Positions 4,285-31,728 of a DNA stretch of 36,864 bases are shown one piece after another. Position numbers and translations under genes: made by a program. The DNA comes from Candidatus Bathycorpusculum soli (lineage in GTDB: Archaea; Thermoproteota; Bathyarchaeia; Bathyarchaeales; Bathycorpusculaceae): NCBI GenBank assembly GCA_031277345.1, contig JAITMO010000041.1, positions 1-36,864 on the forward strand, read 5' to 3'. Every line of letters starts with the position of its first letter. Position 1 is the first letter of the stretch. The notes below the pieces were generated by a model that searched no databases, was not told the origin of the DNA, and worked only from the letters and a program-made list of their open reading frames with translations.

Positions 4285-4432
4285 TAAACGCCTCACACAG
4301 TAACATACCAAACATACGCTTAAACATTTTTTCTCTCCGCATCCCTTAACCATTACCATTAATTAAACCATAAAGTTTAAGGGCAGAAGCTTTGTTTAAG
4401 ATTCAAGTATTCTAACTTTGAGGGTTCACAGT

Positions 4433-4984
4433 TTGAGCACTAACGTCTTAACAATTGAAGAACGAAAAGCAGAAGTTCTCATTCGACTAAGAAAATATAA
4501 ACAAATAGAAAAACAGCCTTACGAAGGCGCATACGCATACATAGTAGATATACCACAAGACAAAGAACGTGCCATCGTATGGTGTATTCTAGGCGAAGCC
4601 ACCGTCGGCATAGCCGCCATGAACACACTCTACAAAATCATGAAAGAAAAAGAACTTGAACGCGCCATCGTCATAACAGAAGGACGATACACACACGCAG
4701 TCAAACTAGGCGCAAAGAAAAAGAACGTAGAACTCTTACCAAAATCTTTTCCAGTATTCAACATATTCGAGCACGGACTAGTCCCATTTCACGAAATACT
4801 AAACGAAAAAGAAAAAACCCAACTACTCACACAATACAAAGTACAACCATACCAAATGCCACAAATAAAATCAGGCGATCCAGCAGTTAAAGTAATCGGT
4901 GCAAAACCAGGTGACGTACTCAAAATCACAAGAAAAAGCACAACCGCCGGCGAACACACAACATACAGATACGTAGTAGAATAA
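4433..4984 (+). CDS. rpoH: RNA polymerase subunit H (Rpb5) with N-terminal extension
   Basis: The last ~75 residues ([11 protein letters not shown], then the [18 protein letters not shown] and TTYRYVVE segments) are the conserved assembly domain of archaeal RpoH, equal to the C-terminal domain of eukaryotic RPB5. Archaeal RpoH is normally only ~80 residues. This one has ~108 more in front, with [20 protein letters not shown] and AIVITEG, which follow the layout of the N-terminal jaw domain of eukaryotic RPB5 (VGIK, a helix, then RAIIVVQQG). I start it at TTG 4433 because GAGGG lies eight bases upstream; TTG 4418 is the longer alternative. The gene stands alone. In many archaea rpoH precedes rpoB, and neither rpoB nor rpoA is here. 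Identity is firm; homology of the N-terminal domain is inferred from memory of RPB5. Confidence 0.92.
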
Positions 4985-5028: not shown

Positions 5029-5250
5029 TTAAGACTCTTTTGCTTCAACAGACAATTCATCTAAAATCACTAATGCTTCTCCAAGAGACATATTAAGCCT
5101 ATGAGCAAGCTCTTGAGGAGTTACATCAGGTGTCTCTAAAAGCACACACCCCTTTGTATAAGCCTTATGAGAAACAAACATTACTGAAGAATGGGCAGTC
5201 TCCACAACCAACTGCCAAAGACTCTCTTTACTATAACTATCCAAATCCAA
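5029..5250 (-). CDS. Small HTH-like protein of unknown function
   Basis: About 73 residues from TTG 5250. The C-terminal part (VTPQELAHRLNMSLGEALVI) has the spacing of a helix-turn-helix, with a final Glu-rich tail. The frame continues upstream to an ATG at 5334, but that part is a Cys/Val/Ile-rich translation of an AC-repeat-like intergenic stretch, so I prefer the TTG, which has AGG about ten bases upstream. It lies downstream of, and on the same strand as, the giant helicase-nuclease gene (146-base gap), and converges on rpoH. A regulatory role is possible, but I do not recognise the family. Confidence 0.45.
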   Translation of the reverse strand: MDLDSYSKESLWQLVVETAHSSVMFVSHKAYTKGCVLLETPDVTPQELAHRLNMSLGEALVILDELSVEAKES

Positions 5251-5396: not shown

Positions 5397-8300
5397 TTAA
5401 GCCAAAGTTACAAGGCCATCTTTGAGAGATAGTTTTCGGTCGCGCACCAGTCGATTTAAGATATCGTTAAAGCATTCTTTAACCGCATCTACAGAATATC
5501 TTAAACCAAAAATTTTAGCCGTTTCAGTTAACAAAGATATATCACTTATACCTGAAGTATACTTAACAATAAGCATCAGGGCAGCCTCTACTTCTTCAGG
5601 AGGAATATACTCTAATTTACGTTTAGTCTCAGGGATACCCTTGACTGGTTTACGAATTTGCACCTCTTTCAAAGGAAGAGCCCATAAAAAGCCACCTTTA
5701 ATAGTAACTTTTTGCGCCTTAAGCAAAACATTAAGAGACTCCTGAACAGCATGAGTAATTTTTGGCGTTACAGCATGTAAGCCCCAACCATCTGCAAGAC
5801 GTTCAACCGCGTAATCAAAATGAATAGGCCCTTCCCGTTCCACCAAGGATCCAAGGAAACGAGTTTGAATATCTCTATTACTAGGATAATGAAACTCGTT
5901 ACTCTGCCTTGAAATGTAAGTATTTTTGTTGTTGAACGCTTTAAGATAGGGATTAAACGCTATCCGAAGAGGAAAAACCTTGTATGAGACCCCAATTTTT
6001 TCTAAGGACATAAACGAGACTTTATGCATCTCAGTCTCCACAACACCCGCCTCTTCCTCCTCGCCTAAATCAACAGATGGCTTAAGAGATTCTTCATCTA
6101 ACTGCACTTTTTGGGCTTGCTCAAGAGCCTCCTTTAATCGTTTAACTTCAGAATCACGACGTGCAACCCAAGAAGGTGCCCAAACACGATGAACACGCCA
6201 ACCTAAACCTCTAAGAACTTGCTCACGAAGACGATCACGATCACGCGCACTATTGCTTGAACAATAAGTTGGCCCATCACATTCAACACCTAAAAGATAA
6301 CAGCCAGGAGTAACAGGGTCAACAACACCTATATCAATTTTGTAGCCACTACAACCCACTTGAGGTATAACCTTATAACCCAACTTTTGAATCTCAAAAG
6401 CAATATCTTCATCAAGAGAAGACTCAAAAGTTCCAGACGAGTTAAGTGCAACACTAAAAAGCTCTGGCCCTTTCTCAGCGTACTCAAGATAATTCCGCAA
6501 AGTCTGAACACCTAAAGCTTTCACATCAGAGCTAATATCAGCAGACTTTATTGACGAAACAATAACCACCTTTTCACGCGCACGAGTTACAGCAACATTC
6601 AAACGACGCTCGCCACCAGGCTTATTTATAGGTCCAAAATTCATAGTCATCTGACCAGTATGATCATAACCATAACCAACACTAAAGAAAATAACATCAC
6701 GTTCATCACCTTGAACATTCTCAAGATTCTTAACAAAGAAGCCTTCAAGACGGTCTTCCTTAAAGAATTTGTCAAACTCTGGATTTTCTTGCAAACGTCG
6801 ATAAATAGCCTCCTCAATAGCCTCCATCTGAGGTACACTAAAAGTAACTATACCAAGAGTCTTCTTAGGATAATTAGTAAAATGCTCAAACACCAAAGTT
6901 GCAACTTCTTCAGCTTCAACTTGATTATCTCTATTACCACCTCTATCATAAAGACCATTTTGAACATAAACCATCTTTACACCCAAACTATCATGCTTAG
7001 CCTTAGCCGCTGGAAAAGTAATAAGATTACCATCATAGAACTGATTATTAGAGAAAGCAATCAAATCCTCATGCTTACTACGATAATGCCACCTTAACGT
7101 TTTCACAGGCAAACCAATACCTAAACACTCATCAAGTATGCTATCAAAAACTTCAAAGTCTTCATCATTTATTTGACTCCAATCAATATTATCAACGATA
7201 GACTTTTGGAAGAAACTCGTAGGAGGCAACTGTTTATTGTCACCTGCAACAACAAGAGTTTTACCACGATAAATGGAACAAATTGCATCCTCAGGCACAA
7301 TTTGAGAAGCCTCATCAAACAAGACAATGTCAAAATGAGACGCTTCAGGCGCAAGAAATTGACTCACGCTAATAGGACTCATAAGCATACAAGGCTTTAA
7401 TTTAACCAGCAACGTAGGAATTCTCTGCAATAAAGTGCGTATAGGCATTAAATTACGCTTCTTAGCAGCCTCTTTCATAAGAATAGATGTTTCAGAATCC
7501 CCTGCCTGAACCAAAATATTCTGAGGCTTTCGACTATTCGCAGATTCAATAACCATACTAGAAGCTAAACGAATCAACTTCTTATCAAGAGCCTTAAAGT
7601 CATCGATTAACTGCTCATGATTCTCGCGCCGAAAACGACCTAAACGAGAATCCTCTGTATAGAGATTATTTATCCACTCCTGATAAGCACCCCTACGAAA
7701 AGAATCAATCAATTGACTATCCGACGTTTTCTGCTCAACAAGTCGCTCAAAGAAACCACCTAACCCACGAAGCGCAAACCGGTTCCGAAGATCTTTAAAA
7801 TCAATCCAAATCTGCAACTCATCAACCCGCTCACGCAAAATCTTCAACCGCTCATAAACAACAGAGAGAGGCAAATCACGAAGAGCCTGATTCTGATACC
7901 TAAGCTCCTTCTCAAAGCGCGACTCAAAAATAGCAATAGACTGAAGAGCAGTCTCATAACACCTAATCAACTTTACATCTGAAGGCGTATTAGAAACACC
8001 GGTAGCAGCAAGAAGAGCAAAAGCATCAGGAACAACAACATCACCAAAAACTCCCTGCACTTTTTTAACCCACTCAAGCACATAAATAATCTCAGTCCAA
8101 TTCGTTTCAAGCTCACAGAAACGAGAGCCAAACTTTATTTGAAGCTGAGACTTCTCACCAGTTACAGCAGCCTCCTTTCTACGTACAGCCTCAACATTTA
8201 CAAGATCCTCAAGAAGATGTTTATAGGTTTTAGGCACAACCAAAGCAGTAGAAAGAGTCTCTTTTGTCAAAATACTCAAAGGCGCAAACTGCTTCTCAAC

Positions 8301-11075
8301 ATCAATCACCCACTCTTCAAGCCTATGCAAATCAATTTGATCCAACGCTACACTAGAAAAAGGCAAGCTTTCGGGAATCAACTCAGAAACCTCTGCAGCC
8401 TGTTGCTCCCACTTAACAATAGACTCCTCAAGTTCATAACCTAAATGCTTAATCATAGGAGAAGGCCCAGAGGCACTTGTAACCAATTTTACAAAAGTCT
8501 CAGAAGGAACATTAATGCCTGATGCCAGTTTAATTTCTTTAATTATGTTAAGTGCCTTCTCTACTCGGAGGAAATCCGTATCATACCCTTGATAGAAACG
8601 ACCCAATAAACCTTTAACAGTCTCAGCCTGAGCATCGATTTCGGCGCCAAGAGTTTTTACTTTACGAGCATCAATAAGGTCCTCCAAGATGGTTGAAGGA
8701 ACCTTACCATTTATACTAACACGAGCGAGTTGCTTTTGATCGTTACGGAAGTTTGAGCTAAACATTCGAGACAAGTTAGACTGATAACTTCCATTATAAC
8801 GAGCGACAAGCTCATCAAGATTTAGATTATAAAGACCAACAGTATAAGACTTGCTTAAACGTTCCTTTAGCAGGTTATGCTGTTGATAAAGTTCTTTTGC
8901 TTTTAATACAGTATTATATACCTGTTGGAAAACTATAGAATCAAACCATTGTGGCTCAGGCTTAACATCAGCAAAACAGAACAAAGCTAACTTGGAAAGA
9001 TACTTGACATTTTGTAAATTCAAACTATCAATAGATAAACCAAGAAGACCTGCAAGAGAATGCGCCTGCTCACGCCACTTCTTAATAGCCTGCTGAGTAC
9101 TTCGAATATACGTCAAAAGCTTTTCCTGCTTAACCAAAAAATCTGACTCTAACAGATTTATTCCTGGAAACAACTTTTCAAGAATAAGCAAATTCTTTTG
9201 CAATTCAACAGACCTATCAAAAGCAAGATTAAACACAGATCTATTATAACGCTCCAACAAACTAGACCTTGTAGTTTTAATCCATTGACACATCTCACTA
9301 TAGGTTTTTGCCTCAGCTATTAGAGCATCAACATTTCTATTAAGCAACCAAGATGCTTCAGGTTTAGGACTTGCATGTAACAGCGACCCTATATTAATTA
9401 ACCATTTTACTTTATCAAGACTTACAGGGGAGCTTAAGCCTAACTGACGAGAAAAGTTCATGCTCTCTGACTGTAAATCTTCAACAGTATGAGCAAGAAC
9501 CTCAATTGAAGTTAACACCTCAGAGCGAACTTCAAGATTATAAAGACTCGCACGATAACCCGCCCAGGGAAAATCAGGTTCATCAACCACTTGCCAAACT
9601 TTACTTAACTCAGAAGTTAAACCTTCAAGCTCACTTAACTTTTGAGGAGTTAGAGTACTAACATCAGTTAAACCAACAGCAACATACGGAACACGTTCAA
9701 GACCAGCAATTATACTCAAAGCATCATACGCACTCTTTTGCATATAAGGACGCTTTTCATGCAACGCCGTAACATAACCATTTAAACTATCGCGATAAGC
9801 TTTCATCGTCTCAAATTCATGTGCCGAAGGCAATTTACAAGGCACCAAAGTCTCATCAAGACTACGCTTAAGCTCAGCAACAACCTCCTGCTTGTTAGCC
9901 TTACTACTATGAAGCTCTAAACAAAAATGAGCCAACCCTACCTCGCTAAGACGCTTATAAACTACATCAAGAGCAGCCATTTTGTCACTTACAAAAAGCA
10001 CCGACTTACCATGGGCAATACATTCAGCAATTATATTTGCAATCGTCTGACTCTTACCAGTACCAGGCGGCCCCTGCATTACAAAACTTTGACCACGCAA
10101 AGCATACTCAATACTAACCCGTTGACTACTATCAGCATCCAAAGCCTGATACGTTGACTCAGGCAACTGAATCTTATCAACATCCTTCTCATCAGGAAGA
10201 CCATCAAGAACAAGCTTTTCATCCTTTATACCAACAATCGCCCGCACTATAGGATGCTGCGTGATAAGCTCCTCATTTGACTCAAAATCCTTGTAAATAA
10301 CCAACTTGTGAAAAGAAAACAAACCTACATTCACAACAGAGTCAACAGTCCAACCTAACTCTGCAACAACTTTTGCTACTGCATCAAAATAATTTACAAG
10401 CGTATCTACTTCCACATCTTCAGGAAACAAAGGCAAATCAATCTTAAACTCAGTCTTCAACTTTACCTGCAACGCAGGATTTACAACAGTTTCTTCTTCA
10501 ACAGGAGGCACAAAAATTTCAAACGGCTTACGCACCGTTTCCCGCGCCAACTCTAAAGGCACCAAAAGCAAAGGAGAGGACACATTCTCCTTAGTATCAC
10601 CATCAACCCAATTCAAACGACCAAACGCCATATAGAGAACCCTAACACCCCGTTCCTGATAATCAAGCAAAGAACGTTTCTGCAAACTCTTAAGAGTAGA
10701 CTCAAGCTCCACACGGTCCAAACCCTTACTAACAAGCTGGTTTGAACGAGGCTTTTTAGGCTCAACAACCGTAGACTTAGTCACAACCACTGAGTCATCA
10801 AACGATTCATCAATTTGACTTTCCTCTTCTACAGGAGGCACCCAAAATTCTAGACGTTTCTTGCGTATAACCAAATCCTTAAAAACTGTCGTCGCATCCG
10901 GTGTAGTTACCGACACATTTCCACGCTTAGACGCATGAAAATAAAGCAGATTATTTCTTCGAGTTAAATCAATTAAACGCGACTTCCAATCATCAACACG
11001 CCGCACAGATGTAGAAGAATTCACTTGAGCCATAATACCACACTTAAACAAATATTTAGCTAAATTATTATACAT
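5397..11075 (-). CDS. Giant DUF4011 / SF1 helicase / PD-(D/E)XK nuclease
   Basis: This is a protein of ~1,892 residues. Domains in order: a DUF4011-type N-terminus (DDWKSRLIDLTRRNNLLYF, from residue 28); an SF1 helicase core with Walker A GPPGTGKS (335-342); a long helical insertion to about 1,200; Walker B IVLFDEASQI (~1,250), WHYRSKHEDL (~1,330) and NVAVTRAREKVVI (~1,500); an MTES_1575/Vsr-like nuclease with DIGVVDP, GVECDGPTY and a GWRVHRVW strand (~1,570-1,660); and a C-terminal DUF3320-like region. Enzymes of this plan (COG1112) are presumed nucleic-acid helicase-nucleases, and a DUF4011-helicase-Vsr architecture has been reported as the Hhe antiviral system. I start at ATG 11075, which has GGAG five bases upstream; ATG 11033 is an alternative. 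It is a single gene with no classical defence partners. A defence role is inferred. Confidence 0.88.
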   Translation of the reverse strand: MYNNLAKYLFKCGIMAQVNSSTSVRRVDDWKSRLIDLTRRNNLLYFHASKRGNVSVTTPDATTVFKDLVIRKKRLEFWVPPVEEESQIDESFDDSVVVTKSTVVEPKKPRSNQLVSKGLDRVELESTLKSLQKRSLLDYQERGVRVLYMAFGRLNWVDGDTKENVSSPLLLVPLELARETVRKPFEIFVPPVEEETVVNPALQVKLKTEFKIDLPLFPEDVEVDTLVNYFDAVAKVVAELGWTVDSVVNVGLFSFHKLVIYKDFESNEELITQHPIVRAIVGIKDEKLVLDGLPDEKDVDKIQLPESTYQALDADSSQRVSIEYALRGQSFVMQGPPGTGKSQTIANIIAECIAHGKSVLFVSDKMAALDVVYKRLSEVGLAHFCLELHSSKANKQEVVAELKRSLDETLVPCKLPSAHEFETMKAYRDSLNGYVTALHEKRPYMQKSAYDALSIIAGLERVPYVAVGLTDVSTLTPQKLSELEGLTSELSKVWQVVDEPDFPWAGYRASLYNLEVRSEVLTSIEVLAHTVEDLQSESMNFSRQLGLSSPVSLDKVKWLINIGSLLHASPKPEASWLLNRNVDALIAEAKTYSEMCQWIKTTRSSLLERYNRSVFNLAFDRSVELQKNLLILEKLFPGINLLESDFLVKQEKLLTYIRSTQQAIKKWREQAHSLAGLLGLSIDSLNLQNVKYLSKLALFCFADVKPEPQWFDSIVFQQVYNTVLKAKELYQQHNLLKERLSKSYTVGLYNLNLDELVARYNGSYQSNLSRMFSSNFRNDQKQLARVSINGKVPSTILEDLIDARKVKTLGAEIDAQAETVKGLLGRFYQGYDTDFLRVEKALNIIKEIKLASGINVPSETFVKLVTSASGPSPMIKHLGYELEESIVKWEQQAAEVSELIPESLPFSSVALDQIDLHRLEEWVIDVEKQFAPLSILTKETLSTALVVPKTYKHLLEDLVNVEAVRRKEAAVTGEKSQLQIKFGSRFCELETNWTEIIYVLEWVKKVQGVFGDVVVPDAFALLAATGVSNTPSDVKLIRCYETALQSIAIFESRFEKELRYQNQALRDLPLSVVYERLKILRERVDELQIWIDFKDLRNRFALRGLGGFFERLVEQKTSDSQLIDSFRRGAYQEWINNLYTEDSRLGRFRRENHEQLIDDFKALDKKLIRLASSMVIESANSRKPQNILVQAGDSETSILMKEAAKKRNLMPIRTLLQRIPTLLVKLKPCMLMSPISVSQFLAPEASHFDIVLFDEASQIVPEDAICSIYRGKTLVVAGDNKQLPPTSFFQKSIVDNIDWSQINDEDFEVFDSILDECLGIGLPVKTLRWHYRSKHEDLIAFSNNQFYDGNLITFPAAKAKHDSLGVKMVYVQNGLYDRGGNRDNQVEAEEVATLVFEHFTNYPKKTLGIVTFSVPQMEAIEEAIYRRLQENPEFDKFFKEDRLEGFFVKNLENVQGDERDVIFFSVGYGYDHTGQMTMNFGPINKPGGERRLNVAVTRAREKVVIVSSIKSADISSDVKALGVQTLRNYLEYAEKGPELFSVALNSSGTFESSLDEDIAFEIQKLGYKVIPQVGCSGYKIDIGVVDPVTPGCYLLGVECDGPTYCSSNSARDRDRLREQVLRGLGWRVHRVWAPSWVARRDSEVKRLKEALEQAQKVQLDEESLKPSVDLGEEEEAGVVETEMHKVSFMSLEKIGVSYKVFPLRIAFNPYLKAFNNKNTYISRQSNEFHYPSNRDIQTRFLGSLVEREGPIHFDYAVERLADGWGLHAVTPKITHAVQESLNVLLKAQKVTIKGGFLWALPLKEVQIRKPVKGIPETKRKLEYIPPEEVEAALMLIVKYTSGISDISLLTETAKIFGLRYSVDAVKECFNDILNRLVRDRKLSLKDGLVTLA

Positions 11076-11200
11076 TACTTCTCCAAACTGATTGACTAAA
11101 CAACAATAAAACAAAAAACAGCGCTAAACAAACACCAAAAACCAACAGCACTCAAGCTACAAAGACGCACAACCTAAAATCACCAGTAAAACCATGCTAA

Positions 11201-11224: not shown

Positions 11225-12505
11225 TTAGTCTTGTCTTAGCGCATCTACAGGCTTAAGTTTAGAAGCACGCCATGCAGGATACAATGCAAAGATTACACTT
11301 ATACCTACACCAAACGCTAACGAGCCAAATAAAACTATAGGAGTTAACACAGGCGTAATAGCAAGTCCACCTCCACCAGTACCAATAATAAGACCAGAGC
11401 CAAGTACCCAAACTACAGCTTTAGCTGTAATCCAACCACCAATTATACCAAGGATTGCACCAATAAAACCGATAATTACTGATTCTCCAAGAAAGATCAT
11501 GAGTACTGTCCGGCTTTTCATACCCAACGCCTTAAGAATACCAATTTCACGTGTACGCTCAATCAGCGAAACAATCATAATGTTCATAATACTAATGCCC
11601 GCAACTAGCAAAGAGATTGCTGCAATGCCAAATAGGAACAGTTGGATAGTAGTAAAAACCGTAGATAACAAACTTATTATTGCTGTTGAAGAGATTACCG
11701 AGACTTGATTACCAAAATGATCGCGGATTAAATCGGTAACACGTGCAATTGTGTCTTCATCACTATTTGTCAGCTTTACAATTATCATATCACAAACATC
11801 TGTTCCAAAGAAACTCTCAGCTGTTGACAACGGAATATAAACGCCACTATCAGAAGGTCCACCAAAACCAAACCCTCCAACAGCGCCCAAAACACCACTA
11901 ACTTGGGCGGTATAAGTTTTATTTTCAAACGGCCTTGCAGAAACATTAAGCCAAACCAAATTTATGCTATCGCCTGGAACGATAAATTGCGTGCCATTTT
12001 TATCAGGATCACTTACACTACTACCAATTACAATTGTATCATTTTTAGGATTAGTTGGAATTGTTCCAGATTCAGCATCAAAAGTACTGTAAATTCGCGC
12101 GTATGTTTCATAGTCAACACCGTAAACATGTACACTACTGTTTAGATAGTCTGATTCAACCATACCAACCTTTGAAATTACTGCAAGAACACTATCAATA
12201 TCTGGAGATAAATTCTGTATGTCAGAGGTGTCATTAAGATACAACTTAAATCCAGAATCATCTAAACTAATAGTTACACCACCCTCAGAACCACCTTGAC
12301 TACTACCAGGTGTAACGATTAAAGAATTAGTAGACAACCCTGAATTTAACTCGTCAGTAACTGCCACTTGGAACCCTTGAGTAATAGTTAACATAGCCAC
12401 TATAGCCAAAATACCAATCGTAATACCAAGAGTAGTTAAAGCAGCACGAAGTTTACGAAGCCTTATTGTACTAAAAGAGTAACCTAAAATATCAAACGTT
12501 TTCAT
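11225..12505 (-). CDS. ABC exporter permease, MacB/FtsX type
   Basis: A membrane subunit of 426 residues. One membrane segment near residues 20-45 (LRAALTTLGITIGILAIVAM) is followed by a large extracellular domain (about 46-285, rich in Ser, Thr, Gly and Asp) and three membrane segments near 290-310, 335-365 and 385-410. The loop SLIERTREIGILKALGMKSR is the FtsX-family coupling region that contacts the ATPase. The gene begins one base after the stop of the ATPase gene, so the two are co-translated. MacB-type exporters act mechanically on peptides, lipids or lipoproteins outside the membrane; the substrate here is unknown. The family is sure, the specific function is not. Confidence 0.9.
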   Translation of the reverse strand: MKTFDILGYSFSTIRLRKLRAALTTLGITIGILAIVAMLTITQGFQVAVTDELNSGLSTNSLIVTPGSSQGGSEGGVTISLDDSGFKLYLNDTSDIQNLSPDIDSVLAVISKVGMVESDYLNSSVHVYGVDYETYARIYSTFDAESGTIPTNPKNDTIVIGSSVSDPDKNGTQFIVPGDSINLVWLNVSARPFENKTYTAQVSGVLGAVGGFGFGGPSDSGVYIPLSTAESFFGTDVCDMIIVKLTNSDEDTIARVTDLIRDHFGNQVSVISSTAIISLLSTVFTTIQLFLFGIAAISLLVAGISIMNIMIVSLIERTREIGILKALGMKSRTVLMIFLGESVIIGFIGAILGIIGGWITAKAVVWVLGSGLIIGTGGGGLAITPVLTPIVLFGSLAFGVGISVIFALYPAWRASKLKPVDALRQD

Positions 12506-12506
12506 A

Positions 12507-13190
12507 TTAATTCACCATATCTGATTGTATTTCACCATCAAACATTTTGATAGTTCTTCTTGCGGTACGAGCCAATTCTTGATCATGAGTAACCATAATA
12601 ATGCTCACACCATTTTCCTTGTTAAGCCTATGAACTAAACTCATTATCTCATGAGCTGTTTTAGAGTCAACATTACCAGTTGGTTCATCAAGCAATAAAA
12701 ACCGCGGATTATTAGCCAAAGCACGAGCAATAGCAACACGCTGTTGCTGTCCACCACTAAGTTCAGTAGGCTTATGATTCATACGCTCCTTTAAACCAAC
12801 TATTTCAAGCAACTTTATTGCACGTTTACTACATCTTGCCTTATTCATGTCAGCTACAGACATTGGCAATTCAACATTTGCTTTTGCAGATAAACGTGGA
12901 ATTAGATTAAAAGATTGGAAAACAAAACCAATTTTTAAACGCAGCTCAGAAAGGCGTGCATCATTTAGTTTGCCGACATTTACACCATCAATAAGCATGG
13001 TACCAGAAGTTGGCTTATCAAGAGCACCAATAAGATTAAGCATTGTAGATTTACCACTGCCCGATGGCCCGAGAATCGAAATAAAGTCGCCAGCTTCCAC
13101 ACTAAAACTCACACCACACAGCGCTTCAACGGGAACTTTACCCATCATATACGTTTTTCTAAGATTAATAGCCTCAATTATTGCCGTCAT
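12507..13190 (-). CDS. ABC exporter ATPase, LolD/MacB type
   Basis: A nucleotide-binding subunit of 227 residues, the normal size. Walker [10 protein letters not shown] is at residues 41-49, the Q-loop lies in [15 protein letters not shown], the signature LSGGQ is at 144-148, Walker B LLLDEP at 165-170, and the switch His is in [11 protein letters not shown]. It powers the permease encoded one base downstream. The start is well supported, with AAGGAG a few bases ahead of the ATG. No accessory membrane-fusion protein follows, as is usual for archaeal pairs. The substrate cannot be inferred. Confidence 0.93.
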
Positions 13191-13496
13191 TTCACATCTC
13201 CTTATTTTTTATTACTTGTATTTTCTTAATTGTCTATTGTATAACACTATGCACAAACTGATTGAATATAAACAGTATCTAATAAGAGTATACACCATAG
13301 GTGTAACTAAATTTTTCAAAAAAAAACACTAACAACACCAACTACAACAAACAACACCTAAAACAAACGCCGATAGACCATAAACAACTAAACATAACAT
13401 ACATCATAATAAGACGACCATACACCTAATCAACACAACAACACAGACATACAATCAACTACAAAATACTAACAGAATATCAAAACATCATTTTCA
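13191..13496. other. A+C-rich intergenic stretch (plus strand)
   Basis: There is no gene here. About 300 bases separate the ABC operon from the downstream end of the small membrane-protein genes. From ~13320 to 13490 the plus strand is almost free of G and made of short AAC/ACA/CAA words, as in several other non-coding stretches of the window. The part next to 13190 should contain the ABC operon promoter; AT-rich candidates exist there but none is convincing. Confidence 0.6.
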
Positions 13497-14024
13497 TTAA
13501 ACACCATCATCATTATTGTAACAGGATTGTGTTTTTGTAGAGTTAACAAGATGTAAAAGGTGTACTCTTTGACGTTTTAATCCTGAATATTCAAAGAAAA
13601 ACTTTTCAAACGCAGCCCAAAGAAAAACCCAACTTGCGACAAGCAACACTTCATACAAAATTGTAAATATACTAAACAGATAACAAAACAAAAGAGTAAA
13701 AACACCCAACCCCATCAACAGCAGCGACAGATGTTTTATTCGCTTCTCCTCTTTACGAATAGTAACAAGGTCTTTTGCAACAAACAAACTTAACTTTTTA
13801 TGAAAAAAATTTGTACAATTTTTTGGGACAGTTATTTTGACATTGCGAACAAAATCAATAAACCGTGCTTGCTCTTTTAAGCTATTGTACCCTTTTGCAG
13901 TAAGCTCACCGGTTTCATCAAAAAAGTCAGCAGTTAATACAAGTGTATTATCATCCTGTGATGATATTTGGGCCAATAACTCATTTTCTAATTGAACAAG
14001 TTCCTTTATTGTATTCCTACTCAT
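13497..14024 (-). CDS. Two-helix membrane protein of unknown function
   Basis: About 175 residues. The N-terminal half is soluble and charged (NTIKELVQLENELLAQISSQ, then LTADFFDETGELTAKGYNSL), followed by a basic stretch and a membrane hairpin at about residues 98-142 (LSLLLMGLGVFTLLFCYLFS and a second segment ending WAAFEKFFF). A short polar tail ends in an Asn/Asp-rich end. The frame extends to 14093, but ATG 14024 has AGGG nine bases upstream, so I start there. It is the last of three minus-strand genes (winged helix, membrane protein, this one) that may form an operon. I do not recognise the family. Confidence 0.6.
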   Translation of the reverse strand: MSRNTIKELVQLENELLAQISSQDDNTLVLTADFFDETGELTAKGYNSLKEQARFIDFVRNVKITVPKNCTNFFHKKLSLFVAKDLVTIRKEEKRIKHLSLLLMGLGVFTLLFCYLFSIFTILYEVLLVASWVFLWAAFEKFFFEYSGLKRQRVHLLHLVNSTKTQSCYNNDDGV

Positions 14025-14135
14025 AACAATATCCCTATAACACTTTGTGGAACATAAAATAATATGGAAGTATCCCGCTGTTGTACGTGACACAATAAGT
14101 ATGTTGACTGTTTGAAGTAAAAACGATTTGCACGT

Positions 14136-14495
14136 TTATTCGCTTCCACTGGTTTTGTCATCATCTGCAAACAGGGTTTCTTCGTAGCTATAGATACGCT
14201 TCATGCGTTTTTCCCACCGTTTGAAGAATTTAAATTGAGACGTTGTCAGATAAATCGTGTAAATCAAAAACCCTGCTAAAGGCAACAACAAAACCAAAAG
14301 GACAAGATCAAAACCAAGAAAACGTGTTATACGTAAATAACCAGAAATAAACCCTATCAATAAAATTGAGCAAACAATAGTACTCAAAATTGTACCACGT
14401 TTAAAGCGTTTCCACTCTTTATTTATCTCAGAAAAGAATTCATGTGCAGCTTTAACAGGATGCTGTTGTTCTTCTTTTTCGTTCATATTTTTCAT
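14136..14495 (-). CDS. Small two-helix membrane protein of unknown function
   Basis: 119 residues. A charged N-terminus (EFFSEINKEWKRFKRG) is followed by two hydrophobic segments at about 35-53 (TILSTIVCSILLIGFISGYL) and 63-84 (DLVLLVLLLPLAGFLIYTIY), then a basic stretch and an acidic tail. Translation could start at M1 or at M4 (ATG 14486, with GAGATGA upstream). It sits 111 bases after the next small membrane protein's start and 50 bases after the winged-helix gene, on the same strand. The layout (cytosolic ends, a hairpin in the membrane) resembles the neighbour, but no sequence similarity is evident. Function unknown. Confidence 0.6.
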   Translation of the reverse strand: MKNMNEKEEQQHPVKAAHEFFSEINKEWKRFKRGTILSTIVCSILLIGFISGYLRITRFLGFDLVLLVLLLPLAGFLIYTIYLTTSQFKFFKRWEKRMKRIYSYEETLFADDDKTSGSE

Positions 14496-14545
14496 CTCTG
14501 TATATTTTTCTGTAGTTATATAGGTAACGCACCATTGGTGAATAC

Positions 14546-14914
14546 CTAAAGTAATGAGGGCAATGAATCACGAAGGTTAATGTAGATTTTTCTGCCCTCT
14601 GCAGTTAATAAAAGCCTGTTTTGTGATTCTTCTTTAACAAATCCTTTATCTTTTAAATAAATTAAATGCTTTAAGAAGTCATCATATGATACATCGGTTG
14701 CTTTACGCCAAACATGTGTACGCAATTGAGTTTTATCACTAAAGAAAAGGAACTCTAATATTTCAAACCGTATCTGAACTGAACCTTTTCGTTTATTAGT
14801 AATCTCTTTACGCCTCACTAAACCTGATGATGTATTCACTAAGGAATTGTAAGAAAATAACTTGTATTTTTTACAGTGTATACCATGTAAGTGTTTGGAA
14901 CATTGCTCCAACAA
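14546..14914 (-). CDS. Winged-helix DNA-binding protein (HTH_45-like)
   Basis: The protein fits the small archaeal winged-helix family (PF14947-like): a basic start (RRKEITNKRKGSVQIRFEIL), a recognition-helix region (VSYDDFLKHLIYLKDKGFV), then the wing strand RLLLTAEGRKIY. The domain begins about 33 codons into the frame. The preceding residues are Cys/Lys/His-rich and may be untranslated, so GTG 14818 or GTG 14839 are alternative starts. The family includes regulators that control adjacent membrane-protein genes, and two such genes follow on the same strand. A regulatory role is inferred; the target is unknown. Confidence 0.65.
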   Translation of the reverse strand: MLEQCSKHLHGIHCKKYKLFSYNSLVNTSSGLVRRKEITNKRKGSVQIRFEILEFLFFSDKTQLRTHVWRKATDVSYDDFLKHLIYLKDKGFVKEESQNRLLLTAEGRKIYINLRDSLPSLL

Positions 14915-15157: not shown

Positions 15158-15571
15158 TTAATTTATAATGTCTACTGGTTTTAGATGGTATTTAGGCCAT
15201 GGTGGCCAAGTTTGTGATTCATTACACGAGTCAAAATGGACTGTTAGGTGCATGCCAATTTTGAGTTGCTCGTGAGATATGTTTTGTATTACGCCTGGAA
15301 GTTTCAAGTTGTCGTCTAATTCTATGATACCTATTGTGTATGGAGCTAAATGGTGAAATTGTGGGGGTGCTATGTGAATTACTGTGTAGGTTAAGAGTTT
15401 GCCCTTATTTGAAATTGGTATCCATTCGAACTGTGTATTGTAGCAATTATCACATAATGGGCGTGGGGGTAGGTGAAGTTTACCGCATTTTAAACATTTG
15501 CCAGCCATTAATTTGTCTTGTGAGATAAGTTTATAGAATTGTTCAATACTGAAAGGTTCTTGAATGTTCAT
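15158..15571 (-). CDS. DUF35 zinc-ribbon/OB-fold partner of thiolase
   Basis: 137 residues. An N-terminal helix is followed by a zinc ribbon with C26, C29, C40 and C43 (CLKCG and CDNCY) and then an OB-fold from about residue 48 (KGKLLTYTVIHIAPPQF). DUF35 proteins bridge acetoacetyl-CoA thiolase and HMG-CoA synthase in the archaeal complex that opens the mevalonate pathway, channelling the CoA intermediate. The ATG overlaps the thiolase stop by one base (TAATG), so the two are translationally coupled. HMG-CoA synthase, often part of this cluster, is not in the window. Confidence 0.9.
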   Translation of the reverse strand: MNIQEPFSIEQFYKLISQDKLMAGKCLKCGKLHLPPRPLCDNCYNTQFEWIPISNKGKLLTYTVIHIAPPQFHHLAPYTIGIIELDDNLKLPGVIQNISHEQLKIGMHLTVHFDSCNESQTWPPWPKYHLKPVDIIN

Positions 15572-16749
15572 TATTGTGTGCTCCTATATATGTGAACAAC
15601 GGCAGTTGCACCTGAGCCGCCAACGTTGTGGGTTAATCCAATTTTTGCATCTTTAACTTGGCATCGTTCAGCTTGGCCGGTAAGTTGTAGGTACATTTCG
15701 TATGCTTGTGCGGTACCTGTTGCGCCAACAGGGTGACCTTTAGCTTTTAAACCGCCACTTGTATTGACCGGGATACGGCCACCAAGGCGTGTCTGGTTGT
15801 CTTCTAGTAATTTGCCACTCTCGCCTGGTTTGCAGAAACCTAAGTCTTCATATGCAATAAGCTCAGCACTGGTAAAGCAGTCATGAACTTCGGCAAGATC
15901 GACGTCTATAGGTGAGAGCTGCGCCATTTCATAGGCAGTTTTTGCAGCGGTTTTTGTTGATGTTAATGAAGTTACAGTTTTACGTTCGTATAATCCAATA
16001 GAGTCGCTAGCTTGTCCACTACCAATAATGTGTACTGGGTTATCGGTGTATTTAAGGGCAAGTTCTGGTTTTGTTAAAATTACACAGCTTGCACCGTCAG
16101 TAACAAGGGAGCAATCATATAGTTTAAGAGGCCATGCAACATATCGGGACTGCATAACGGTTTCAAGGGTAATTTCTTTTTGCATATGTGCTTTAGGATT
16201 AAGGCTTGCATGATAGTGATTTTTGACTGCTGCCATCGCAAAATGTTCTTCTTGTGTACCATAATCATGCATATGTCTAGAAGCCATTAACGCAAACAAT
16301 CCTGGAAAAGTAATACCATGATACTGCTCAAATGGATAGTCAGAAGCCATTGCAAGGTATTCTGTAACTTCAGCAGTGGTACGATTGGTCATTTTTTCAA
16401 CGCCTCCAACTATCACAACGTCGGCAAGTCCAGATAATACTGCATATACACCAGTCCGCAAAGCTGCACCTGATGAGCCACAAGCAGCCTCACAGCGAGT
16501 AGCAGGAATACCAAGTAGTCCAGACCAATCCGCAAGAATAGCACCCATATGACCCTGATGTTCATACGCTTCACCCATATGTCCAATAAACATGGCCTTT
16601 ACATCACGCTTGGGCTCCAAACGAGGACACCGTGCAAATGCTTCTTGAATAGCTAAAGTAAAAATTTCTCGAGCAAGCAATCCTTCATGCTTCTGAAATT
16701 TTGACATACCAGCACTAATTATACTAACTAGAGGTTTTCCACTCAACAC
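15571..16749 (-). CDS. Archaeal thiolase (acetyl-CoA acetyltransferase type)
   Basis: 392 residues, SCPx-like archaeal thiolase size. The nucleophile region is EAACGSSGAALRTG with C90; the other active-site boxes are HDCF (289-292), KGHPVG (H339) and HNVGGSG (374-380). In archaea this enzyme condenses two acetyl-CoA to acetoacetyl-CoA for isoprenoid lipids, in complex with the DUF35 protein encoded next. The start is a GTG with AGG nine bases upstream; a TTG follows as the second codon. Absence of a neighbouring HMG-CoA synthase leaves a different acyl-CoA substrate possible. Confidence 0.9.
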   Translation of the reverse strand: MLSGKPLVSIISAGMSKFQKHEGLLAREIFTLAIQEAFARCPRLEPKRDVKAMFIGHMGEAYEHQGHMGAILADWSGLLGIPATRCEAACGSSGAALRTGVYAVLSGLADVVIVGGVEKMTNRTTAEVTEYLAMASDYPFEQYHGITFPGLFALMASRHMHDYGTQEEHFAMAAVKNHYHASLNPKAHMQKEITLETVMQSRYVAWPLKLYDCSLVTDGASCVILTKPELALKYTDNPVHIIGSGQASDSIGLYERKTVTSLTSTKTAAKTAYEMAQLSPIDVDLAEVHDCFTSAELIAYEDLGFCKPGESGKLLEDNQTRLGGRIPVNTSGGLKAKGHPVGATGTAQAYEMYLQLTGQAERCQVKDAKIGLTHNVGGSGATAVVHIYRSTQ

Positions 16750-28263: not shown

Positions 28264-28313
28264 GTGGAGATCAGTTTAGGCCTCACGCAAATATCGCTCA
28301 AACACTACCATTG
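28264..28313 (-). other. 3' strand of the 23S processing helix
   Basis: This trailer pairs with the leader at 31333-31383: 14 perfect pairs next to the mature RNA, then further short matches (CAC/GTG, TAGG/CCTA, and GTGGAG/CTCCAC, the last at 28264-28269 with 31378-31383). It is the typical archaeal pre-rRNA stem. A bulge-helix-bulge is plausible in the middle, but I could not fix its register. Confidence 0.7.
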
Positions 28314-31332
<3,019 letters not shown>

Positions 31333-31728
31333 CAATGGTAGTGTTTGTTTGGCGTTTGGTGAAAACCTAATTGTTTTCTCCACATATACTACATATTATT
31401 TTGTTGTGTTGCGCGTCGTTGACCTATGCATGGTGTCATTGTGAGCGTACACATGTTCGACTTATGTGGGCTCTTGTCACACCCTTCACTCCACATATAC
31501 ATTATACGGGAGTTGCATCTATTAATTCACAATTTATGGCCTACCCATAATTGCTGAATTGCATTAGAAGCGAATATCAGTAATATAAGGATATCGTTTA
31601 AGATTTACAGTTTCTTGGCAAAAATTTTATGCCCATTAAAGCATCAAAACTATAACGAAAAAAAATACTTCACCACAAACAGTGAAAAACTACTCCGCTA
31701 ACTCTAAAAGAAATAAAAATTTGATTTT
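31333..31728 (-). other. 23S rRNA leader and promoter region
   Basis: 396 bases between the 23S rRNA and the glyA stop hold no tRNA, 16S or protein gene that I can see. The part next to the rRNA (31333-31383) is the 5' strand of the processing helix. The 12-mer CTCCACATATAC (plus strand) occurs twice, at 31378-31389 and 31489-31500; on the RNA side it includes the GUGGAG that pairs with the trailer. A TATA-like TAATATAAGG (plus strand, 31581-31590) could direct rRNA transcription; a second AT-rich candidate lies near 31493-31510. The glyA end carries T-rich tracts. Confidence 0.55.
31699..31722 (-). terminator. T-rich tract after glyA
   Basis: Just past the glyA stop the minus strand has several short T runs (up to five). 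This may end glyA transcription before the rRNA promoter. Confidence 0.3.

Follow-up and report, generated by a model that had tools for sequence, protein, structure and literature searches.

A solitary PDC-S37/ProA-like helicase–nuclease is a vertically inherited core gene of Ca. Bathycorpusculum

The minus-strand gene at 5397..11033 of the window (the whole 36,864-nucleotide stretch of DNA analyzed here) encodes a giant protein of 1,878 residues that joins a DUF4011 domain, an SF1 helicase split by a long helical insertion, a nuclease and a winged-helix-like tail. Its closest named relatives are single-gene families annotated for defense; the gene itself stands alone, is fixed throughout the genus Ca. 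Bathycorpusculum, has been inherited vertically and is held under purifying selection. From these features we infer its substrate, its activity and an antiviral role: in the reading we favor, to which we would give an even chance, the protein is a constitutive PDC-S37/ProA-like DNA-surveillance helicase–nuclease that most likely restricts incoming viral or plasmid DNA. A function in genome maintenance is somewhat less probable, and the evidence for each is weighed below.

The original prediction placed a frame of ~1,890 residues at 5397-11075. The open reading frame is genuine, but its start was set 14 codons too far upstream. The minus-strand frame is open across 5397-11114, and we take the ATG at 11033 (protein P0001) as the conserved start because the frames of four close relatives (G027, G001, G028 and G002) open exactly at the equivalent codon. 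The gene has full-length homologues, 57-78% identical, in 29 other genomes of the genus, which excludes a chance frame; in a 30th genome the homologue is split over contig ends.

The domain order read from the sequence alone is upheld by Pfam and AF2, all features lying on the minus strand. The DUF4011 domain (PF13195, E 9e-27, with the same coordinates by genome search) spans residues 19-192 (10458..10979) and is followed by the first RecA half of the helicase (residues 297-480, 9594..10145; AAA_11 in Pfam at residues 301-452), whose Walker A motif GPPGTGKSQT (10044-10073, containing K327) varies neither within the genus nor in any outgroup that covers it. The second RecA half (residues 1235-1494, 6552..7331; AAA_12 in Pfam at residues 1308-1494, and Foldseek) carries the DEAS box, GDNKQLPP, QGDERD and NVAVTRA. 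Genus-wide, Walker A, the DEAS box, GDNKQLPP, ENVQGDERD and RRLNVAVTRA vary little or not at all. An MTES_1575/Vsr-like PD-(D/E)xK nuclease (PF18741, E 1.3e-31) occupies residues 1542-1637 (6123..6410); judging from its fold, D1567, E1584 and D1586 would be the catalytic residues. The window copy retains these acidic residues, as the MTES_1575 PD-(D/E)xK definition demands, together with all SF1 motifs, and the expectation of intact catalytic motifs thus holds for this copy. The tail comprises two winged-helix-like units (residues ~1717-1785 and ~1812-1877, 5403..5885), recognized by AF2 secondary structure and by a weak DUF3320 match (PF11784, residues 1713-1759; E 1.1e-4 with the whole protein and 1e-5, just above the cut-off, with the tail alone). 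We note that the window's C-terminal block (5403-6170) is unusually divergent, with an identity of 0.60-0.67 to G027 where G001 and G027 share 0.85-0.88. It is in frame, and a foreign origin is not supported, as its own clade remains closest.

The predicted very long helical insertion is also seen in the AF2 model. Its ~670 residues (481-1150, 7584..9593) split the helicase and are modeled as all-alpha with a local pLDDT mostly of 80-92, the overall arrangement being unsure at a pTM of 0.36. All Bathyarchaeia orthologues, even those at ~41% identity, have Walker A and motif II 913-919 residues apart, against 549-638 residues in more distant relatives; given the constancy among the orthologues, the insertion is a structured element whose length is fixed. 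Comparison of the profile with itself reveals two duplicated units within it (~458-599 with 600-744, and ~781-916 with 932-1070) at an E value of 4e-14 that helical composition may inflate, and aligned motifs such as KPExxW support the duplication. A fold search with the N-terminal model returned only generic long-helix matches with TM below 0.1, and the insertion has no Pfam HEPN match.

Both by sequence and by fold, the helicase best matches UPF1/IGHMBP2, with SEN1 and DNA2 also among the matches (Foldseek for the fold), the fold match being that of the second RecA half only. With motifs Walker A to VI and a UPF1-type fold, the giant is a UPF1-like SF1 helicase; Hhe has been assigned to the same group, SF1_Upf1 (PMC10925250). 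The C-terminal AF2 model (mean pLDDT 73) runs H-H-H-E-E twice, in agreement with the published MTES_1575 archetype, which combines an SF1 helicase and a Vsr REase with two wHTH overlapping DUF3320 (PMC3710099). The giant shares these elements. The archetype additionally has transglutaminase and HEPN domains, for neither of which does the giant give a Pfam match.

Among named families, PADLOC PDC-S37 is the best match (1,414 bits, E=0), collinear over positions 8-473, 637-848 and 849-1542 of 1,550. Judged by bits and coverage of the profile rather than by PADLOC's own thresholds, profile comparison places the giant with this single-gene family. It is ~330 residues longer, mainly in the helical insertion, where only weaker, separate pieces align with profile positions ~474-636. 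While PDC-S37 is a single-gene phage defense candidate, the gene here is fixed in a genus. We found no test of PDC-S37 antiviral activity in the literature, and since PDCs are mostly unvalidated (PMC12988326), the family name alone does not prove defense.

The next match is the anti-phage family ProA (NCBIfam NF058533), with 1,348 bits over positions ~350-1,901; its cut-off of 1,500 is reached in none of the 32 genomes of the genus. The match begins at profile position 351, corresponding to residue 4 of the giant, so that the N-terminal ~350 positions of ProA have no counterpart in the protein. In G016 (C1:997771-998679, locus L213), a separate frame without a Pfam hit matches ProA positions 17-311 with 90.7 bits and may encode the N-terminal domain of ProA on its own.

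The likeness to the single-gene Hhe system proposed in the original prediction proved to be more distant. Hhe has DUF4011, a UPF1-type SF1 helicase and a Vsr-like nuclease in the same order, and its profile covers residues ~108-1655 of the giant. However, the match ends past the nuclease, leaving the winged-helix tail unmatched, and its scores (558 bits for PADLOC PDLC02194; 862.7 bits for NCBIfam NF042953 against a curated cut-off of 2,000) fall far below those of PDC-S37, which reaches 2.5 times the PADLOC Hhe score, and of ProA. We therefore reject Hhe membership, which we regard as highly improbable. The broader kinship suspected at the outset, with defense-annotated single-gene helicase–nucleases, stands, in that PADLOC or NCBIfam profiles of all three families match. 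Distant DUF4011-helicase-nuclease paralogues with a shorter helical insertion also occur, of ~1,400 residues in G027:C15 (L078) and ~1,500 residues in G048:C1 (L079), and two truncated fragments of giant homologues (L122 in G427:C72, and G230:C14:5057-5266) are perhaps relics.

Of the 32 genomes of the genus, identified from named records as Ca. Bathycorpusculum, 31 carry the giant, and the one without it (G031) is 60% complete. It is normally single-copy; a second close copy occurs only in G029, which we take to be a probable mixed bin because one of its copies does not differ from the G004 gene at either synonymous or nonsynonymous sites. By our own count, 28 of the 30 other loci of the genus (all except those of G028 and G003) have a flank in common with the usual gene order, which runs rpoH - HTH - [alcohol dehydrogenase] - [HAD phosphatase] - giant - [DUF1638-like] - OB - thiolase. 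In the window, this order is represented 3' of the giant by rpoH/Rpb5 (4418..4984, plus strand; Pfam E 9e-30) and, on the 5' side, by the OB-fold/thiolase pair (15158..16749, minus strand), which flank comparison finds conserved in most relatives. The giant thus belongs to the core gene set of the genus, being near-universal, normally single-copy and syntenic. The original prediction had held that universal single-copy core status would refute a defense gene, and that status is what we find within the genus; beyond it the family is patchy. Elsewhere in the same taxonomic family, giants occur at unrelated loci in genera g25, g26, g30 and g190 and in one of seven g24 genomes, and most other genera lack one. 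Any giant match is found in 44 of 91 family genomes and 7 of 33 genera, and DUF4011 in 29 of 397 genomes sampled phylum-wide. Methanosarcina acetivorans also has a DUF4011 gene.

Neighbors in relatives were judged mostly by reading rather than by profile scan, the less familiar names being our own reading of the sequences. With this scope, no defense genes were recognized beside the giant in the loci examined, and the housekeeping setting without island partners, first noted in the window, extends to the relatives. A cDHS1-like defense hotspot was accordingly rejected, the conserved or recurrent neighbors being rpoH, an ABC transporter, alcohol dehydrogenase, HAD phosphatase, DUF1638-like and OB/thiolase genes. 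Neither the defense neighbors nor the patchy occurrence of a defense island is found, but housekeeping neighbors and genus-wide presence instead. Upstream of the giant, where most relatives have the DUF1638-like gene, the window (11225-14914) holds an FtsX/MacB-type permease, its ATPase and three small genes. Further away lie a complete archaeal 23S rRNA (28311-31334, minus strand; RF02540) and, at 558-1048, a C-terminal fragment that weakly resembles integrases (PF00589, E 0.0085, under the cut-off) beside tRNA-Arg(tct) (972-1048), a possible old integration site. A promoter/terminator scan stayed at shuffle level, using sigma-70 patterns that are inapplicable to archaea.

A small HTH-like frame does lie next to the giant on the same strand (5029..5250, minus; HTH_24, E 0.0015, under the cut-off), as originally noted, and had been proposed as its regulator. 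Its distribution contradicts this partnership. A search with the 71-residue protein recovers the HTH gene from 78 of 91 family genomes, spread over 30 of 33 genera, far more widely than the giant, and about half of those 78 genomes have no giant. Outside the genus it often adjoins an ABC-transporter ATPase; several loci within Bathycorpusculum have an ABC transporter and a PBP_like_2 solute-binding protein between it and rpoH, and in many relatives two unrelated genes intervene between it and the giant. The HTH gene is a neighbor, and a two-gene system of giant and regulator, for which adjacency and shared strand in the window would speak, is scarcely credible.

The giant has been inherited vertically since the ancestor of the genus. 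In trees of Rad50 and of the giant, built by quick searches with SH-aLRT support only, the genus forms one clade with full support, and the main subclades match, including the same termite subclades. Between members of the genus, pairwise identity averages 0.70 for the giant and for Rad50 alike, and the two sets of values correlate (rho 0.85). Pairwise dN/dS is 0.05-0.10, values that are approximate given a high dS, and indicates purifying selection. Defense genes are usually patchy and clustered. Such fixation, and a pace of evolution as slow as that of Rad50, are unusual for them, and ordinary defense is indeed patchy in this genus, since cas1 is present in 14 of 32 genomes (13 above the cut-off) and strong N6_Mtase matches in roughly half (our own count from the score table).

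The original prediction held that non-conserved nuclease residues would refute it. Most copies do conserve them; they are lost in one three-genome subclade and in one further genome. D1567, which every outgroup examined retains, is replaced by N (codon AAC) in G002, G008 and G010, a single termite-gut clade (loci L051, L054 and L053), and E1584 by A in G003 (L068), the giants being otherwise intact; G351 has no equivalent Glu. No decay is visible in the nuclease of the D1567N clade, as its identity of 0.91-0.96 matches that of sister pairs, and the protein is still under purifying selection there. These substitutions suggest that some lineages may do without nuclease cutting.

For the favored defense reading, we propose that a single-protein member of the family was present in the Ca. 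Bathycorpusculum ancestor and has since passed down vertically as a solitary core gene. The DUF4011 region and the C-terminal tandem winged helices would bind DNA, on which the UPF1-like SF1 motor would translocate with ATP, the DNA being single-stranded or end-containing. The fixed-length helical insertion could serve as a clamp or sensor arm, and the tethered Vsr-like nuclease would then cut, so that viral or plasmid DNA entering the cell would be restricted constitutively. This reading draws on the collinear PDC-S37 match, on the anti-phage names of both next matches, ProA and Hhe, and on the presence of giant homologues on bacterial and haloarchaeal plasmids. Against it stand the lack of recognized defense neighbors, a fixed, Rad50-like slow gene where cas1 is patchy, the largely unvalidated status of PDCs, and the D1567N and E1584A substitutions. 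Core status alone does not exclude defense, however, because P. aeruginosa, too, has a large DUF4011 gene in its core genome, bordering the cDHS1 defense hotspot (PMC10250203); that gene is likened to the giant by description, not sequence, and the giant differs in having housekeeping neighbors.

The same fixation, synteny, mostly single-copy state, slow rate and strong purifying selection, together with the lack of recognized defense neighbors, would also fit a housekeeping genome-maintenance enzyme, the family having been recruited here to act, like DNA2 or SEN1, on DNA ends, R-loops or stalled forks, with loss of defense. DNA2 and SEN1 are among the fold matches, and a nuclease residue has been lost in one clade with the rest of the protein conserved. 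We consider this a serious contender of lesser probability than defense, as the best-matching named families are defense-annotated and most other genera of the family lack the giant, which is thus not essential for bathyarchaeal genome maintenance generally. A persistent selfish or addiction-like element, kept because its loss is costly and not for any net benefit, would likewise be solitary, large and retained, and distant relatives do reside on plasmids; with no antidote partner or mobile-element genes seen and a constant location in the genus, we regard it as quite unlikely.

In sum, a member of the PDC-S37 family that is solitary, fixed and as slow as Rad50 across a whole genus is a clean natural setting in which to ask whether proteins of this kind serve immunity, housekeeping or both, and the subclade whose nuclease site has changed naturally constitutes a built-in test of the need for cutting. 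A more specific scenario, which we hold to be rather doubtful, is that a virus-defense helicase–nuclease was domesticated as a vertical core gene in an archaeal genus and that, in a termite-gut subclade, its nuclease lost a catalytic residue with the motor still under selection. If true, a domesticated giant with a lost catalytic residue would imply a nuclease-independent cellular role.
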